This document shows positions 6,656 through 22,939 of a DNA stretch of 64,000 bases, piece after piece. The position numbers and the translations under genes were made by a program. The first letter of the stretch is position 1; every line of letters starts with the position of its first letter. The notes under the pieces were generated by a model. That model did no database searches. It was given only the letters and a program-made list of their open reading frames with translations, and had not been told where the DNA came from. Source of the DNA: Streptomyces sp. NBC_00582 (GTDB taxonomy: Bacteria > Actinomycetota > Actinomycetes > Streptomycetales > Streptomycetaceae); assembly GCF_036345155.1 (NCBI RefSeq), contig NZ_CP107772.1, forward strand, positions 1,426,001 through 1,490,000. The letters run 5' to 3'.

Positions 6656-7885
6656 ATGAGGAAACCGCAGATCGACTACGCGGCGGTCTTCCGGGCCCTG
6701 CCCGGCATGGTGGCACTGCTCACCCCCGAGCTCGTGTACACCGACGCCAACGACGACTTCGTACGGCTGGCCGGGCGCACCCGCGAGCAGCTCGTGGGCC
6801 GCTACATCTTCGACGTCTTCCCCGAGAACCCCAACGATCCGGCGGCGGCCGGCCGGCGGGAGACCGAGACGTCGATGCTGCGCACGGTGGCGACCGGCGA
6901 GCGCGACACGATGGCGCTGCTCCGCTACGACATCGAGGACCCCGACCGGCCCGGTCAGTGGCAGGAGCACTTCTGGAGCCCGGTGAACGCGCCCGTCCTC
7001 GGCCCCGACGGGCAGGTGGAGCTGATCGTGCACCGGGTGGAGGAGGTCACCGATCTGATCCGTGCCTTCGGCGGGCCGGGCGACGACAGCCGGGCCCGGG
7101 TCCTGGAGGCCGAGCTGTACACCCGTGCGCGGGAACTGCAGGAGGTCAACGAACGGCTGCGCCGGGCGCACGCCCATGAGCGCGAGGTCGCCCTGGCCCT
7201 GCAGGCGGCGATGCTGCCCGCGCCGGGGCCGACCGGGGAGCACGCGGCGGCGGTGCGCTACCGGCCCGCGATCGGCGCGCTGAACGTGTGCGGCGACTGG
7301 TACGACCTCGCGGACCTGCCCGGCGGGAACCTCGCGGTCGCCGTCGGCGACGTGGTCGGCCACGGCCTGGCGGCGGCCTGTGTCATGGGGCAGCTGCGCA
7401 GCGCGCTGAGCGCGGCCTGCCGGGTCGCCGACGGCCCGGCGCAGGCGCTGGAGGCCCTCGGCCTGTACGCCCGCTCGGTCGAGGGAGCCGAGTCGACGAC
7501 GGTCGTGACGACGTTCGTCGACTGGGACGCGCGCACCGTCACCTACAGCAGCGCCGGCCACCCGCCCCCGGCCCTGCTGCACCCCGACGGCTCCGTCCGG
7601 TTCCTCGACGGCGCCACCGATCCGCCGCTCGCGGCCCGACCCGAGCACCTCGCGCGCCCCGAGGCCCGTACGTCCTTCACCGAGGGCTCCACGCTCGTGC
7701 TCTACACCGACGGGCTGATCGAACGCCGTACGGAGGACATCGACACGGGTCTGGACCGGCTCGCCGACTCCCTGGCCCGCCACCGCGAGGACGATCCCGA
7801 GCACCTGGCCGACGCGCTGCTCACCGATCTCCTTCCGGCGACCGGCAACACCGACGACACCGCCCTCATCGTCATCCGTCTCTGA
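6656..7885 (+). CDS. PAS-PP2C (SpoIIE-type) phosphatase
   Basis: 409 residues from ATG 6656; longer upstream frame is rejected because the PAS domain starts right after this ATG (YAAVFRALPGMVALL). PAS domain about 10-125, coiled coil about 140-180 (ELYTRARELQEVNERLRRA), PP2C domain about 190-405 with GDWYDL, VGDVVGHGLAAA, SSAGHPPP and YTDGLIERR. Metal-binding aspartates are intact, so it should be an active Ser/Thr phosphatase. Such proteins act in sigma-factor partner switching; the stimulus sensed by the PAS domain is unknown. Confidence 0.92.
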   Translation: MRKPQIDYAAVFRALPGMVALLTPELVYTDANDDFVRLAGRTREQLVGRYIFDVFPENPNDPAAAGRRETETSMLRTVATGERDTMALLRYDIEDPDRPGQWQEHFWSPVNAPVLGPDGQVELIVHRVEEVTDLIRAFGGPGDDSRARVLEAELYTRARELQEVNERLRRAHAHEREVALALQAAMLPAPGPTGEHAAAVRYRPAIGALNVCGDWYDLADLPGGNLAVAVGDVVGHGLAAACVMGQLRSALSAACRVADGPAQALEALGLYARSVEGAESTTVVTTFVDWDARTVTYSSAGHPPPALLHPDGSVRFLDGATDPPLAARPEHLARPEARTSFTEGSTLVLYTDGLIERRTEDIDTGLDRLADSLARHREDDPEHLADALLTDLLPATGNTDDTALIVIRL

Positions 7886-16389: not shown

Positions 16390-17541
16390 ATGCACATCTC
16401 CGCGACCGCCCCGCCCACCACGCCCTCCACGGTCTGGCTCGGCCGTGGCCGCCACACCGGTCCCACCGCGCCGGACGTGCTGCGCACCCACCTGCGGGCG
16501 CTCAAGGACGGCGAGAGGCTCCAGGACTTCCGGGAGCTGCCCGACAGCGAGACCGCCGAGGGCGAGTCCGCGTTCGAGGCGCGCTGGCATGTACCCGACG
16601 ACATCACCGTGCGGGCCAGGCTGAAACTGGCGGAGTGGTCGGGCCGGGGTCAGGAGTGGACGCTGGTCGCGGAGGCCGAGCGGCCCTGGGACCCGCGGTG
16701 GCCCTCGCCCGCCGAGATGTTCTGGCCATGGGAGACGGACTCCGCGTGGGGCCAGGAGACCGTGACCGGTCTGCGCTTCCTCGACGTCAACCCGCTCCCG
16801 GCCGACGACAAGGATCTGCGCCGCACGCTGAGGGCCGCCCTGCGCGACACCTGGACCGTCGACGTCGTCGTCCACGAGGCGATGACGCCCGACGAGCGGG
16901 GCCGGCGCCCGCTGGTCTCCCTGCTGCCGCCGGGCCTGCACCACCGGGTGGTCGAACACCGAGCGGCGCCGCACCAGCTACGGACCGTGAACTGGGCCCT
17001 GAAGGACTTCGGGGTCGAGGTCCCGCGCGGCGGTGCGCTGGTGCTGCCCGGCAGCCCCGCGCCGGACGGGTACGACGCCGGGTCCTTCTCGGTGCGCAGC
17101 GTCTTCCTGGACGGCTCGCATCCGACCGAGGTGCTGGACGCCGTACGGCGCTACGTCGCGCTGCCCGCGCCGCTGCCCGAGGGCGGCGACGCCGCGCTCA
17201 CCCTGCTCCGGGAGAAGTGGCAGTTGCTCACCCTGGAGGAGGAACTCGCCCGGGAACGCGAGCTGGTCGCCATGTACAAGGAGGCCCTGGCGGCGATGAC
17301 CGAATCCCGGGACCTGTACCGGGAGGCGGCCGAGCAGGCCCACGAGGCGCTGGCCGCCTACCGTGACGCGGCGGCCGAGGCCGGGGTCGAACCGCAGGCG
17401 CCGACGGCACCGGCGAAGAAGAGCGGCTCCCCCTTCCAGCAGTGGGGCCGGACCCTGGAGCGCCTCAAGGAGACCACCATGGGCCTGCGTCCGGCGTCGT
17501 CCGCCGATTCCGACGGGCCCGAGGAGGCCTCCGACCGGTAG
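16390..17541 (+). CDS. Hypothetical protein with C-terminal coiled coil
   Basis: 383 residues from ATG 16390. No family recognised. The first 270 residues look globular, mixed alpha/beta, with conserved-looking blocks FEARWHVPDDITVRARLKL, HHRVVEHRAAPHQLR and SFSVRSVFLDGSHPTEVLDAV. Residues about 285-340 are a long Glu/Ala/Arg heptad helix (LEEELARERELVAMYKEA onward), followed by a Ser/Lys tail. No signal or membrane segment, so cytoplasmic. Separated from the RiPP genes by the DUF1232 gene; no operon partner. Confidence 0.75.
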   Translation: MHISATAPPTTPSTVWLGRGRHTGPTAPDVLRTHLRALKDGERLQDFRELPDSETAEGESAFEARWHVPDDITVRARLKLAEWSGRGQEWTLVAEAERPWDPRWPSPAEMFWPWETDSAWGQETVTGLRFLDVNPLPADDKDLRRTLRAALRDTWTVDVVVHEAMTPDERGRRPLVSLLPPGLHHRVVEHRAAPHQLRTVNWALKDFGVEVPRGGALVLPGSPAPDGYDAGSFSVRSVFLDGSHPTEVLDAVRRYVALPAPLPEGGDAALTLLREKWQLLTLEEELARERELVAMYKEALAAMTESRDLYREAAEQAHEALAAYRDAAAEAGVEPQAPTAPAKKSGSPFQQWGRTLERLKETTMGLRPASSADSDGPEEASDR

Positions 17542-17699
17542 CCGGTCGCCCCGGCCCCGCCGTAAGCGGAGGACGAACGACCGGAAACAGGCTCCTTCTT
17601 GTGAGGTAATCCCGCCGGAAAAGGGGAATTCGGGAACCGAAATCGGGGAAATCGACTCAGGGGCGCACCTGCGCGCGACGGACCCCGGAGGGAGGGCCC

Positions 17700-17990
17700 G
17701 TGGACACGACCACCACGCTCGTCATCGTCGCCGCGACACTCGCCGCGGCCCTGCTCGCGTGCGCCGCCGCGGTGCTGGTCCGGTTGGTCCGCACCCGCCG
17801 GGACCTCAGACGCGCCGGCCTGCCCACCGGCCCGCGCTGGGTGTTCTGGGGCGCGGTCCTGTACTTCGTGCTCCCGGCCGATCTGCTGCCCGATCCGGTC
17901 TACCTCGACGACATCGGTGTCCTGCTGCTCGCCCTGCGCTCCCTGCGCCGTGTCCCCGACTCCGTGGGCACCCCAACTGACCGTATTTGA
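17700..17990 (+). CDS. DUF1232 (YkvA-type) small membrane protein
   Basis: 96 residues from GTG 17700, preceded by GGAGGGAGG. One N-terminal membrane helix (TLVIVAATLAAALLACAAAVLV), a basic stretch, then the DUF1232 core WVFWGAVLYFVLPADLLPDPVYLDDIG split over residues 47-72, with the diagnostic PADLLPD. Function of the family is unknown. The 158-bp gap upstream is unusually A-rich for this genome (around 17610-17660) and probably holds its promoter. Confidence 0.85.
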   Translation: MDTTTTLVIVAATLAAALLACAAAVLVRLVRTRRDLRRAGLPTGPRWVFWGAVLYFVLPADLLPDPVYLDDIGVLLLALRSLRRVPDSVGTPTDRI

Positions 17991-18074
17991 AGACGTTTTC
18001 ACCCCCCGTTCGGCACATCTCCCCTGCTCCGCGCCCTGTTGGGATCCGAACTCGCCGATGATCACGGAGAGTAA

Positions 18075-18102
18075 GGAAACCAACCACCCGTTCGATTCGT
18101 AT
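18075..18102 (+). promoter_or_regulatory. Possible ECF-type promoter for the RiPP pair
   Basis: GGAAACC (18075-18081) and CGTAT (18098-18102) are 16 bases apart, resembling the GGAAC / CGT pattern of extracytoplasmic-function sigma factors. They lie 92 bases before the precursor start. This is a weak match by eye only. Confidence 0.25.
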
Positions 18103-18194
18103 AAGTGACTGAAGGTCGCACGTAATGCAGCGGGCCCGAGTGACGTCGCACAGCGGCACCGCTTGATCGAGGCAGTACCGACGAGGGAGAGAAC

Positions 18195-18386
18195 ATGCAA
18201 CCGTTCGCGCTCAACTACGCACGCCCTGCGGCGGAGTTGGAGTTCGCAACTCCGTACGCCTATGACCCCGGACTGCAGTTGAACGTACTCCTCGACGGCC
18301 GTGTCGCCGCTCGTGACCACGCCCTGCTCAGAGAACTGGGGACCACCACCTCCACCGCGGGTTCCAAGACCCACTTCGACGACTGA
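18195..18386 (+). CDS. tgmA: ATP-grasp-modified RiPP precursor peptide
   Basis: 63 residues, ATG 18195 with GAGGGAGAGAAC in front. The leader begins MQPFALNYARP and runs to about residue 48; the probable core is the C-terminus TTTSTAGSKTHFDD (50-63), rich in Thr/Ser plus one Lys, ending in two Asp. This layout fits a graspetide-type peptide, in which an ATP-grasp enzyme joins side-chain hydroxyls or Lys to Asp/Glu. With only two acidic residues in the core, at most two links are possible there. The maturase follows 16 bases downstream. Family: putative ATP-grasp-modified RiPP; product not known to me. Confidence 0.88.
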   Translation: MQPFALNYARPAAELEFATPYAYDPGLQLNVLLDGRVAARDHALLRELGTTTSTAGSKTHFDD

Positions 18387-18402
18387 GCACGGGCCGCGCA
18401 AG

Positions 18403-19389
18403 ATGACCGTGCTCATCCTGACCTGCGAAGAGGACGTCACGGCGGACATGGTGGTCGTGCACCTGAACGCCGCGGGCGTCCCGGTCGTCCGGCTCGATCC
18501 GGCCGATCTGACCAGCACCGTCGCCCTGTCGGGCGAGTACGTCCACGGTGCGTTCCGGGGTCATCTGTCCTCGGCCGGCCGGCTGGTGAGCCTGGACGGA
18601 CTGCGGTCCGTGTGGGTGCGCCGGCCGGGCGTCGCGGCGGCGCGGGCGGCCCAGCCGTCCGCATGGCTCACGGAAGAGGCCTCGCAGGCCCTCTACGGCA
18701 TGCTCCGGGGCACCGGCGTGCGCTGGATGAACCATCCGGACGCGTCCGTGCGCGCCCGGCACAAGCCGTGGCAGCTGCGGCTCGCGCAGCGCAGCGGGCT
18801 GCCCGTGCCCGCGACCCTCATCACGACCTTCCCGCAGGCGGCGCGGGATTTCGCGGAGCGCTACCCGGACCTGGTGGTCAAGCCGGTGTCCGGGGCGCAT
18901 CCGCAGGACCCGCCGCGCGCGGTCCCCACCACCAGGGTGCCGCCCGGCGCCGACTTCGCGGCCGTGGCCTACGGTCCGACGCTGCTGCAGCGCCGGGTGG
19001 CCAAGCGGGCCGACATCCGGCTGACCGCGGTGGGCGAGCGGATCCTCGCCGCCCGCAAGGACACGGCCCCGGGCGCCGACCCGGACGTGGTGGACGTGCG
19101 GTACGCGCCCTCCACCACGCCGTGGCGCCCCGCCGACGTACCGCCCCGGCTCGCCGACGCCGTACGGACGTATCTGCGCGAGGCGGAACTGGCCTACGGC
19201 GCCTTCGACTTCGCGGAGGACGCCGACGGCACCTGGTGGTTCCTGGAGTGCAACCAGTCCGGGCAGTTCGGCTTCGTGGAGGTGGACACCGGTCAGCCGA
19301 TCGCGCGCACCATAGCGGAGTGGCTGGCCGGCCCCGCCCCGATACCGGGCCCCCGGTCCGCCGACCGGTGCGGCTCGGCGGCCTCCTGA
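18403..19389 (+). CDS. tgmB: ATP-grasp ribosomal peptide maturase
   Basis: 328 residues from ATG 18403. The pre-ATP-grasp part (1-95) has VLILTCEEDVTADMVVVHL. The ATP-grasp fold follows with the hinge lysine region DLVVKPVSG and the metal-binding end GAFDFAEDADGTWWFLECN, QSGQFGF, the signature of the SAV_5884-type peptide maturases. It would activate the Asp side chains of the peptide at 18195-18386 by phosphorylation and form the ester or amide links. The third gene often present in such loci, an isoaspartate-type methyltransferase (tgmC), is not here; the next gene is on the other strand. Confidence 0.9.
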   Translation: MTVLILTCEEDVTADMVVVHLNAAGVPVVRLDPADLTSTVALSGEYVHGAFRGHLSSAGRLVSLDGLRSVWVRRPGVAAARAAQPSAWLTEEASQALYGMLRGTGVRWMNHPDASVRARHKPWQLRLAQRSGLPVPATLITTFPQAARDFAERYPDLVVKPVSGAHPQDPPRAVPTTRVPPGADFAAVAYGPTLLQRRVAKRADIRLTAVGERILAARKDTAPGADPDVVDVRYAPSTTPWRPADVPPRLADAVRTYLREAELAYGAFDFAEDADGTWWFLECNQSGQFGFVEVDTGQPIARTIAEWLAGPAPIPGPRSADRCGSAAS

Positions 19390-19397
19390 GCGGACGC

Positions 19398-19436
19398 GGC
19401 GCGGCCGGGACCCCGGGCGGGGGTCCCGGCCGCGCC
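19398..19436. terminator. Perfect 17-bp bidirectional terminator
   Basis: Stem 19398-19414 pairs exactly with 19420-19436, five-base loop GGGCG. It starts 9 bases after the maturase stop and ends 10 bases before the stop of the convergent DUF5133 gene, so it should end both transcripts and isolates the RiPP pair. Confidence 0.85.
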
Positions 19437-19445
19437 GGTCACCGC

Positions 19446-19679
19446 TCAGACGGCGAGCGACAACCCCTCGCCGGCCGCCGCACCCCGCGAGGCGAGGAGG
19501 GCGTCCGCCGCGGCGAGCGCCTCCTCCACGTCGGACGTGCCCATCAGGACACAGAGCGTGTAGGTCACGTCACGCAGTTCCCGGGCCGTCTCCGGCCGCT
19601 CCCGCTCCGCCTGAGCGATCCTCAGCGTCGCGTACCGGGTCAGCAACGTCCTGGCGACCTTGGGGTCCGGAACGATCAC
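19446..19679 (-). CDS. DUF5133 small protein
   Basis: 77 residues from GTG 19679 with GAGAGGGG upstream. Sequence IVPDPKVARTLLTRYATLR, TARELRDVTYTLCVLMGT and EEALAAADALL matches the small helical DUF5133 family of Streptomyces. Function unknown. No membrane segment. The 190-bp gap to the divergent PucR gene holds no further ORF I can support. Confidence 0.8.
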   Translation of the reverse strand: MIVPDPKVARTLLTRYATLRIAQAERERPETARELRDVTYTLCVLMGTSDVEEALAAADALLASRGAAAGEGLSLAV

Positions 19680-19869
19680 GAGCGCCCCTCTCTTCGGTTG
19701 TTGCGCTGCGTGTGCCCGGACCTGGGCGAGTCATGCGCACGAGGCACACACGTCACCCTCCGGGGGCACGATCGCGCCACGCGGGTTCGTGCCGTACGTA
19801 ACGCGGGTGCGCACACAGAGTCACGCGGGTCGCACGCTCGGACACGTGAACGACGAGGAGGACACCCGG

Positions 19870-21489
19870 ATGGACGAGGCGCCCCCGGCCGCCGTGACGC
19901 TCCGCTCCCTGTTGGCCTTCGAGGACGGTGACGCGCTGCGCCTGCTGTGCGCGCCCGACGCTCCCGACACCGCGGTCCGGCGGATCGCGGTCGGCCTGGA
20001 CGATCTGAGCCCGGGCCAGGAGGGTGCCCTGCTGCTGGCCGTGGGGGCGCCGCCGGACGCCGGGACCGTCCGGGAGGCCGCCCGGCGGGGTGCGGTCGCC
20101 GTCGTGCTGGGCGCGGCGGACGAGCGGCTCGTGCCGGTGGCCCGCGGGGCGGGCGTCGCGCTGCTGGTCCGCGCCGAGGGCACCGACTGGGCGGAGACCG
20201 CGGCGCTGCTGCGCTCGGCGCTGTCGTACGCCGGCGTCGGCCGCGACGCCGGGGAGCCGCCGCACGGCCCGCAGGCCGCGTCCTCGCTGGCGGTGCTGGC
20301 GGCGCGCGTCGCGGCATACGTGAAGGGCTCGATCACCGTCGAGGACACCCGGTTGCGGGTCCTCGCCCACTCGGCGACCGGGGACGGCGCGGACGCCCTG
20401 CGCCGCACGGTGATCCTCGGCGGGCGGGTGCCGGACTGGCGGGTGGCCGAGCTGCGCCGCAGCGGCCTGCTGCGTGCCCTGTGGACCTCGCCCGACGTCA
20501 TCCACCGGCCCGCCGACGGTGACAGTCCCGAACGGCTGGTGGTCGCCGTGCGCAGCGGCCGGGAGGTGCTCGGGTCGATCTGGGCGGCCGCGGACGGGGG
20601 AGCCCTGGCCCCGGACGCCGCCCGCCATCTGCGCACGGCCGCCGCCCTCGCCGCTCCCCTGCTGGTGCGCGAGCGGCTGCGGGAGAGCGGCACGGCACAC
20701 CGCCGGGAGACCGCGCTGCGCGGTCTGCTGCACGGCCTCGGGGACCGCCGTACGCACGCCTGGTCGCTGGGGCTGTCCCCGGACGCGCCCTGCGCGGTGG
20801 TGGTGGCCGAACGGCGGTCCGCCGGACCGGCCGACGACCGGTCCCTGGACCTGCTGGTCCTGGAGATGTCGGCGCACCGCCCCGGCACCGGTGTCCTGCG
20901 CGAGGGCGACCGGCTGGCGCTGCTGCTCACCGGGGAGGGCACCGCGGGGGACCATGAGCGGACCGTACGGTCCGTGGCGCGAGACCTGGACGCGGCCCTG
21001 TCCTCGCTGCCGGACGCGGGAGCGGTGTGGCTGGGCGTCGGCCCGGTCGTGCCGCCGGAGCGGGCCGCCGCCTCGCACGAGCGGGCCGTGCTGGTCGTGC
21101 GGGCGCTGCGGGAGCGGGAGGCGCGGGCGCTGGCGGCGGGGCGGCCCCGGCCGGCCCGGTTCTCGGACGCGGCCGGGGTCGGCGCGTCGCTGGAGGTGCT
21201 GCGGGTCCTGGACGCGGCCCGACCGGTGTGGGAGTCGGGCGAGGGGCCGGTGCCCGAGCTGGTCCGCTCGGACCTGGCCTCGGGCGGGGAGCTGCTGCGG
21301 ACGCTGGCGGTGTGGTTCGAGGCGGGGCACGACGTCCGGGAGGCGGCCCGTCGGCTCCTCGTGCATCCCAACACCCTGCGCTACCGGCTGGGCCGGGTCG
21401 GGGAGCGGTACGGCGTGGACCTGGACGATCCCGACACCCGGCTGCTGCTCGCCCTCGCGGTCCGGCTGGCGGTTCCGCCCCCGGGCTGA
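19870..21489 (+). CDS. PucR-family regulator
   Basis: 539 residues from ATG 19870, preceded by GAGGAGGACACCCGG; an in-frame GTG at 19846 lacks a ribosome site. The N-terminal PucR-type domain (1-130) has LRSLLAFEDGDALRLL. The middle (140-400) is GGDEF-like/GAF-like. The C-terminal HTH_30 is clear: LLRTLAVWFEAGHDVREAARRL then HPNTLRYRLGRV. Relatives regulate purine or amino-compound catabolism. It precedes the PLP enzyme at 21605 by 115 bases on the same strand and may control it. Confidence 0.88.
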   Translation: MDEAPPAAVTLRSLLAFEDGDALRLLCAPDAPDTAVRRIAVGLDDLSPGQEGALLLAVGAPPDAGTVREAARRGAVAVVLGAADERLVPVARGAGVALLVRAEGTDWAETAALLRSALSYAGVGRDAGEPPHGPQAASSLAVLAARVAAYVKGSITVEDTRLRVLAHSATGDGADALRRTVILGGRVPDWRVAELRRSGLLRALWTSPDVIHRPADGDSPERLVVAVRSGREVLGSIWAAADGGALAPDAARHLRTAAALAAPLLVRERLRESGTAHRRETALRGLLHGLGDRRTHAWSLGLSPDAPCAVVVAERRSAGPADDRSLDLLVLEMSAHRPGTGVLREGDRLALLLTGEGTAGDHERTVRSVARDLDAALSSLPDAGAVWLGVGPVVPPERAAASHERAVLVVRALREREARALAAGRPRPARFSDAAGVGASLEVLRVLDAARPVWESGEGPVPELVRSDLASGGELLRTLAVWFEAGHDVREAARRLLVHPNTLRYRLGRVGERYGVDLDDPDTRLLLALAVRLAVPPPG

Positions 21490-21604: not shown

Positions 21605-22939
21605 GTGTCGTTCTCCACCGACAAGGTCGCGCTCGCCGTACGGCAGGCCGTCGCCGACGGACTGCTCACGGAGGACCGGCCCGTGGCCGGCTTCCTCGAC
21701 GTCCGGGGGATCCGCGAGAGCGTCGCCGCGCTGCACGAGGCGTTCGCGGGCGTGCCGGACGTGCTGCACGCCTTCGCGGCCAAGGCCTGCCCCCTGGTGC
21801 CGGTGCTGCGGCTGCTCGCCGACGCGGGGATGGGCTGCGAGGTGGCGAGCCCCGGTGAGCTTCGGCTGGCGCTGGACGCGGGCTTCGCACCGGCGCGGAT
21901 CGTGCTGGACTCGCCCGCCAAGACCCGCGGGGAGATCCGCGAGGCGCTGGAGCTGGGCGTGGCGCTGAACGCGGACAACCTCGCCGAGCTCGACCGGATC
22001 GACGCACTGCGCCCCGACGACTGCCGTTCCGTGCTCGGGCTGCGGGTCAATCCCCAGGTCGGCAGTGGCTCGATCGGCGCGATGAGCACCGCGACCGCCC
22101 ACTCCAAGTTCGGGGTGGCCCTGCGGGACGCGGGGGCCCGGGAGCGGGTCGTCGAGGCGTACGTACGGCGGCCGTGGCTGACCCGGCTGCACGCGCACGT
22201 CGGTTCGCAGGGCTGCCCGCTGCCGCTGATCGCGCAGGGGCTCGCGGAGCTGCACCGGCTCGCCGAGGAGATCAACGCCCGCGTGGGCCGCCGCCAGGTC
22301 ACCAGTCTCGACCTGGGCGGCGGGCTGCCGGTGAACTTCACCGACGACTGCGTCACGCCGACCCACGCCGCGTACGTGGCCGCGCTCACCGCCGTGGAGC
22401 CGGCCCTGCTGGACGGCCGCTACCGGCTGGTGACCGAGTTCGGCCGCTCCCTGCTCGCCAAGAACGGGGTCACGGCCGCGCTCGTCGAGTACGTCAAGGA
22501 GGCGGGCGGCCGCCGGATCGCCCTCACCCACGCCGGTGCCCAGGTGGCGACCCGGACGGTGTTCATGCCGGAGTCCTGGCCGCTGCGGGTCACCGCGTAC
22601 GGTCCGGACGGCACGCCCCGGCGGGGCCCGCTGGTGCCGTACGACGTCGCCGGTCCGCTCTGCTTCGCCGGGGACGTGGTCGCGCACGAACACCCGCTGC
22701 CCGAGCTCGCCGAGGGCGATCTGCTGGCCCTGCACGACACCGGCGCGTACTACTTCTCGGCGCCCTGGGCGTACAACAGCCTGCCGCGGCCCGCCGTGTA
22801 CGGGTGCCTGTTCGAGGACGACGGCGTCACGTTCGCCACGGTCCGCCCCGCCCAGTCGCCGCGCGAGATCTCCCTGGAGAACGGCCTGGACCGGGCGGAC
22901 GCCCTGCTGACGGGGTTCTCCGCGCCCTCGCTGCGCTGA
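21605..22939 (+). CDS. Fold-type III PLP enzyme (decarboxylase-like)
   Basis: 444 residues from GTG 21605 with GAAGGAGACCCGGAC. TIM barrel with PLP lysine in AFAAKACPLVPVLRLL (about residue 60), HVGSQGCPLPL and the phosphate loop SLDLGGGLPVNF, then the beta domain ending AYYFSAPWAYNSLPRP. This is the diaminopimelate/ornithine decarboxylase family. The usual CESGD motif reads LCFAGD here: the cysteine and aspartate remain but the substrate-contacting glutamate is lost, so it is probably not a meso-diaminopimelate decarboxylase. Substrate unknown. Confidence 0.87.
   Translation: MSFSTDKVALAVRQAVADGLLTEDRPVAGFLDVRGIRESVAALHEAFAGVPDVLHAFAAKACPLVPVLRLLADAGMGCEVASPGELRLALDAGFAPARIVLDSPAKTRGEIREALELGVALNADNLAELDRIDALRPDDCRSVLGLRVNPQVGSGSIGAMSTATAHSKFGVALRDAGARERVVEAYVRRPWLTRLHAHVGSQGCPLPLIAQGLAELHRLAEEINARVGRRQVTSLDLGGGLPVNFTDDCVTPTHAAYVAALTAVEPALLDGRYRLVTEFGRSLLAKNGVTAALVEYVKEAGGRRIALTHAGAQVATRTVFMPESWPLRVTAYGPDGTPRRGPLVPYDVAGPLCFAGDVVAHEHPLPELAEGDLLALHDTGAYYFSAPWAYNSLPRPAVYGCLFEDDGVTFATVRPAQSPREISLENGLDRADALLTGFSAPSLR

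Follow-up and report, generated by a model that had tools for sequence, protein, structure and literature searches.

A probable prunipeptin-type graspetide gene pair in Streptomyces sp. NBC_00582, with a nearly frozen core peptide and a promoter-like upstream element

The 64,000-nucleotide stretch of DNA analysed in this work (the window; contig bases 1,426,001-1,490,000 of the 11.1-Mb genome of Streptomyces sp. NBC_00582) carries two adjacent genes that very probably (probability about 0.92) form a prunipeptin-type graspetide pair, in which, judging from the sequence, a leader-guided maturase would link Asp62 and Asp63 of its precursor into a bicyclic peptide. The pair belongs to an already described and widespread two-gene family and is not a new minimal form. 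The locus as such is of a known kind; the unexplained part is the constancy of the core peptide together with the private element that lies upstream of the precursor gene. The features of the locus are as follows.

17700-17990, plus strand: gene for a small DUF1232 protein (25.7 bits, cut-off 23), just upstream of the precursor gene
18062..18074, no strand assigned: possible dyad next to the promoter-like element, TTAC-N5-GTAA (TCAC-N5-GTAA in the window); weak, seen from column conservation
18076..18105, plus strand: promoter-like element GAAACCANNCACNCGTTCGATTCGTNTAAG, 30 nt, shared by the aligned upstream regions and ending 89 nt before the precursor ATG
18195..18386, stop included, plus strand: graspetide precursor gene (pruA-like), 63 residues; PF14404, TIGR04186
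18195..18341, plus strand: putative leader, residues 1-49; evolving, dN/dS about 0.30
18342..18383, plus strand: putative core TTTSTAGSKTHFDD, residues 50-63; near-invariant across homologues
18403..19389, plus strand: ATP-grasp graspetide maturase gene (pruB-like), 328 residues; TIGR04187, relative of 9bou_A
19397..19437, no strand assigned: perfect 18-bp hairpin with a 5-nt loop, between convergent genes
19446-19679, minus strand: DUF5133 gene (93.2 bits), convergent with the maturase gene

Direct reading of the precursor frame gave an ATG at 18195, 63 codons with a C-terminus of ...GTTTSTAGSKTHFDD, and a TGA at 18384-18386. After a gap of 16 bases, the maturase frame starts with the ATG at 18403, and its TGA ends at 19389. 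This reading confirmed the 63-residue peptide and the maturase ATG 16 bases further on that an earlier note on this DNA had described. In profile scans, the precursor scored 128.9 bits against PF14404 (Strep_pep; cut-off 25) and 49.7 bits against TIGR04186 (cut-off 25), and the maturase scored 383.2 bits against TIGR04187 (cut-off 350). These scores, all above the cut-offs, bear out the graspetide class and the two-gene anatomy of precursor and ATP-grasp maturase proposed in that note, and rule out chance open frames. In the whole genome there is a single TIGR04186 precursor and a single TIGR04187 maturase above the cut-off, another match elsewhere reaching 38 bits. The precursor has 243 homologues at E ≤ 0.001, 120 of which were listed. 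The border between leader and core is placed after residue 49, where a step in conservation suggests that it lies.

Prunipeptin is reportedly the product of two genes and is said to contain one ester and one isopeptide bond; we take it to be MIBiG entry BGC0002725. The genome of Streptomyces prunicolor NBRC 13075 contains three graspetide loci, with three precursors above the TIGR04186 cut-off and three maturases above that of TIGR04187. At two of these loci, PIMT-type matches lie beside the maturase and the precursors contain several Asp, with Asp-Gly included at their ends. Because of these PIMT-type neighbours, the third locus (L180) alone fits a two-gene cluster, and by elimination we take it to be the prunipeptin locus of S. 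prunicolor. This locus and that in the window are alike in several respects: both consist of a precursor and an ATP-grasp enzyme, the last 21 residues of the precursors are identical, the maturases are 83% identical, and the upstream element described below is present at both. The difference lies in the leader of the window's precursor, which diverges, with 86% identity across the whole precursor. S. prunicolor is the source of prunipeptin (Unno and Kodani 2021), and a preprint describes a prunipeptin cluster family of 3,589 members in six genera, of which 3,572 (99.53%) are in Streptomyces (PMC11888242). In our class-level sample, PF14404 was found in 22 of 394 genomes, all of them Streptomyces, and in none of the 136 other genera sampled. 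In all PF14404 genome searches absences are less certain than presences, as scoring was limited to 29 candidates in each genome (15 at class level). The six genera in the preprint imply that a few exceptions outside Streptomyces exist. The genus and class genome samples overlap.

The earlier note had also presented the pair as lacking a methyltransferase. No such gene lies beside the pair, as it had stated, and a tgmC above the TIGR04188 cut-off (380 bits) is absent from the whole genome, where the best matches score 260.5-261.9 bits and the nearest of eight matches below the cut-off is about 1 Mb from the locus. These weak matches carry little meaning, because at E ≤ 0.001 every one of the 14 control genomes has TIGR04188 matches too, likewise below the cut-off. 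Five proteins of the genome are TIGR04188-like at E < 1e-28. Three of them (L001, L002 and L005) match TIGR04188 better than any other NCBIfam model, though below its cut-off, and the remaining two are FxLD-system methyltransferases that score above the cut-off of that family. At 2.43-2.46 Mb of the same genome (L080 and L081), four PIMT-like methyltransferases lie within about 25 kb, in a region that, at a guess, is perhaps lanthipeptide-type.

What was not borne out is the reading of the missing methyltransferase as a special or minimal trait. A PIMT partner is described as the mark of group 13 graspetides, and graspimiditides as combining a PIMT with a methylated Asp in the loop (PMC13097080; PMC13001092). 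The group 13 members fuscimiditide and amycolimiditide resemble the expected product as actinobacterial ATP-grasp graspetides with side-chain links, but their PIMT and their loop Asp are both missing at the window's locus, where no TIGR04188-type methyltransferase is adjacent and the only Asp in TTTSTAGSKTHFDD are at the last two positions, which leaves none in the loop for an aspartimide. All 57 Strep_pep neighbourhoods of 11-14 kb were without a PIMT above the filter (matches were dropped at E > 1e-6, below 60 bits or below 40% of the query length), and the same queries do detect a PIMT beside both other S. prunicolor graspetide loci. Across 199 Streptomyces genomes, Strep_pep was found above the cut-off in 105 and TIGR04188 in 79, with both in 44, Strep_pep alone in 61, tgmC alone in 35 and neither in 59. 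The two occur independently (odds ratio 1.22, p = 0.56), and the closest pair sharing a contig is about 563 kb apart. The comparison of related genomes for a distant tgmC, which the earlier note had suggested, has thus been made and gives no association with Strep_pep. Given the 57 neighbourhoods and the genus-wide independence, the absence of a methyltransferase is the normal state of the Strep_pep family. It is therefore highly improbable that the locus is a degenerate group 13 graspetide (graspimiditide) whose methyltransferase gene was lost or acts from afar: the precursor does fall in the broad TIGR04186 family, which includes PIMT-linked precursors, and the five TIGR04188-like proteins, three with that model as their best match, would be candidates for a distant partner, but none reaches 380 bits, two are FxLD-system enzymes, and neither the neighbourhoods, the genus-wide counts nor a core with Asp at its final two residues only agree with such an origin.

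The prunipeptin-type reading is also supported by the constant pairing of the two genes. Each of the 186 precursors examined is followed directly by a maturase match, and 183 of these maturases are whole and start 1-38 nt past the precursor stop, with a spacing of 16 nt in 100. At one locus (L102), the maturase frame was misread in the automated reading and the gene was found to be present by tblastn. At two others (L128 and L198), the maturase match that follows the precursor is split in two, possibly through a broken gene or a sequence error. A solved structure is available for this maturase type, since the window's maturase is 83.6% identical over 311 residues (577.9 bits) to PDB 9bou_A, an MvdD-like pre-ATP grasp domain-containing protein. 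The strain of 9bou is a different one, its closest counterparts among the loci examined being in a Streptomyces (L063, 98.4%) and, among named species, in S. violaceorubidus (L135, 98.1%). Asp269, Glu282 and Asn284 (D269, E282 and N284), which we take to be the ATP-grasp metal site, are invariant in all 26 aligned maturases. A maturase loop at about residues 160-167 was considered as a feature that tracks Lys58 and was rejected, as inspection by eye found the rule broken by four loci (L044, L051, L092 and L096).

The core is nearly frozen compared with the leader. In the 120 precursor homologues listed, one protein differs at position 52 and one at position 58, and positions 50-63 are otherwise constant. 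A larger sample comprised 186 loci at E ≤ 1e-8, a threshold that the frame-shifted copy L057 fails, and 150 distinct precursor genes after removal of identical DNA. The exact TTTSTAGSKTHFDD is present in 116 of these 150, encoded in 84 different ways, a share that overstates the frequency of the identical core because 80 loci were drawn from the close-relative list; the best 80 of that list correspond to 77 distinct genes, all with the identical core, and among the genes from whole-genome searches the exact core is found in 55 of 89 distinct ones (105 loci). The other distinct precursors have seven core variants with changes confined to positions 50, 52, 54 and 58, and none of the 150 lacks Thr51, Ser53, Ala55, Gly56, Ser57, Thr59, His60, Phe61, Asp62 or Asp63. 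At position 58, 128 genes encode Lys, 16 Ala and 6 Gln, and six of the 16 Ala58 precursors have Lys at position 54 instead. On a quick maturase tree, built from 73 of 111 maturases thinned at 93% identity and including L102 as a misread row, parsimony needs position 58 to change five times, with one change possibly due to that row. Across the 148 genes that share one length, the core has a dN/dS of about 0.04 (dN 0.026, dS 0.66) and the leader one of about 0.30 (dN 0.212, dS 0.72), both ratios being rough because dS is high. A partial search of the literature returned no report of the invariance of this core or of the upstream element, and an earlier report may exist.

The predicted pathway would start with the binding of the precursor leader to the neighbouring ATP-grasp enzyme, which would phosphorylate the side-chain carboxylates of Asp62 and Asp63. 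Thr or Ser hydroxyls or the Lys58 amine in TTTSTAGSKTHFDD would then attack the activated Asp62 and Asp63, giving a bicyclic C-terminal peptide with a loss of 18 Da per link and two links at maximum. The pathway would have no methyltransferase step, because no Asp remains for an aspartimide, and the leader would be removed by an unlinked protease. Transcription would start at the private promoter provided by the upstream element and end at the hairpin past the maturase gene. Catalysis, the linked residues, leader removal, export and the biological role are all given here as predicted. Asp62 and Asp63 are the sole acidic residues among the last 14, and the upper limit of two side-chain links set by the earlier note holds provided that the putative core is correct. 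Of the donors listed in that note, Thr and Ser are universal, with Thr51, Ser53, Ser57 and Thr59 in all 150 precursors, whereas Lys is not, as Lys58 is replaced by Ala or Gln in 22 of 150. A single linkage pattern with a Lys58 amide therefore cannot cover the whole family, and if the amide donor in prunipeptin is Lys58, the relatives that lack this Lys must be linked otherwise.

In the main line of the family, the promoter-like element is conserved as tightly as the core. In a comparison of 154 distinct upstream regions, the element was found with at most three mismatches in all 116 regions whose precursors are at least 78% identical to that of the window (with none in 101), and with one to five mismatches in seven of the eight regions whose precursors are 66-78% identical, the remaining one having 12. 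It was found in none of the 30 distinct upstream regions of relatives or paralogues below 66% precursor identity, where the best matches had 10-15 mismatches; subgroups of these distant relatives have conserved upstream blocks of their own. Within columns -5 to +30, 30 of 36 are at least 97% one base. In the columns of the possible dyad, A/C at -12/-11 and G at -5 are present in 116 of the 116 close relatives and T at -4 in 114. With two mismatches allowed, the genome contains the 17-nt core of the element once, and the 165-nt upstream region likewise has a single match. At up to one mismatch, this core occurs in 68 of 199 genomes with one site each, and every one of the 68 sites precedes a Strep_pep gene in the same orientation by 28-98 nt; the reversed control pattern has zero matches in the 199 genomes, and 37 of the 105 Strep_pep genomes are without a site at this threshold. 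A regulon site with other targets was rejected, as the 199 genomes contain only Strep_pep-linked sites and the genome of the window only one. An RNA structure or Rfam family was rejected as well, with an ordinary fold (z 0.47) and no Rfam match.

The element is most likely a promoter private to the precursor gene, and its regulation may involve a dedicated factor. With GAAAC and CGTA separated by 17 nt, it presumably resembles an ECF-sigma promoter. At some loci, the element lies 28-31 nt before the ATG instead of 86-108 nt, with about 60 nt missing in between and the sequence of the element kept, a pattern in keeping with a promoter whose leader RNA is dispensable. It is unlikely, in our judgement, that the element is not a promoter and acts otherwise, as a binding site or an RNA element. 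The near-uniformity of 30 of the 36 columns, which is beyond the needs of a bare promoter, and a sigma-70 scan that found no promoter at the locus would be in keeping with such a site, but the retention of the element at 28-31 nt from the ATG is what a promoter with a dispensable leader RNA would show, and the fold and Rfam results argue against an RNA element in particular.

At the other end of the predicted transcript, the hairpin has a folding energy of -56.2 kcal/mol (z -6.2). The earlier note had called it a perfect terminator; the 18-bp stem is indeed perfect, but no T tract follows it and the stretch 17500-19900 has no terminator-like site. Lying between convergent genes, it is likely a two-way terminator that lacks a T tract. 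Five flanking proteins (16390-17538, 17700-17987, 19446-19679, 19870-21486 and 21605-22936) were scanned, and no protease, exporter or immunity family was found above the cut-off among them, in agreement with the earlier statement that no protease or exporter is adjacent; the protein at 16390-17538 has no family match at all. Of the 25 neighbourhoods whose precursor is 79% or more identical, 18 have a DUF1232 gene just upstream and 19 an opposite-strand DUF5133 gene 1.2-6.5 kb downstream, so neither is obligatory.

The combination of a ring-stapled peptide whose core is kept nearly letter for letter and a family present in more than half of the sampled genomes of the genus (105 of 199) suggests a conserved job, and a frozen core points to a fixed partner, either within the producer or common to its neighbours. 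We propose, as a tentative reading, that prunipeptin serves Streptomyces genus-wide as a signal or a housekeeping peptide, in which strong selection holds one bicycle constant in about half of the genus under a private promoter and a paralogue line, with Lys58 mostly replaced, makes a variant under separate regulation. We consider it doubtful that the product, instead of signalling or acting on its own producer, is a weapon, for example a microviridin-like protease inhibitor. Peptides of conflict usually diversify, which this core does not, and the five flanking proteins include no immunity or export family. Microviridin clusters have two ligases, whereas the window's locus has a single one, and its core motif differs from the microviridin motif. 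The ligases (MvdC/MvdD and MdnB/MdnC) are nevertheless related to the maturase, with 5ig8, 5ig9 and 7m4s among its structure matches, and the MvdC and MvdD models match it at 123.1 and 105.5 bits, below their cut-offs of 425 and 475. This kinship gives the weapon reading some ground, as microviridins are described as potent serine protease inhibitors (PMC9826346).

Two further observations concern individual Strep_pep copies. In one genome (G085, contig 75, near 6956-7105), a Strep_pep frame (L057) shifts before the core and leaves the core out of frame; it adjoins a full-length maturase match and is either a pseudogene or an assembly error. Second Strep_pep copies (L039-L049) make up a paralogue line whose members, apart from L044 with its Lys, have Ala or Gln at position 58 of the core, and the Ala members of this line have a conserved upstream block of their own that is, by eye, close to GACCTTCACCCCGATGTGGCGGAAAGTGATGAATTCCTTAC.
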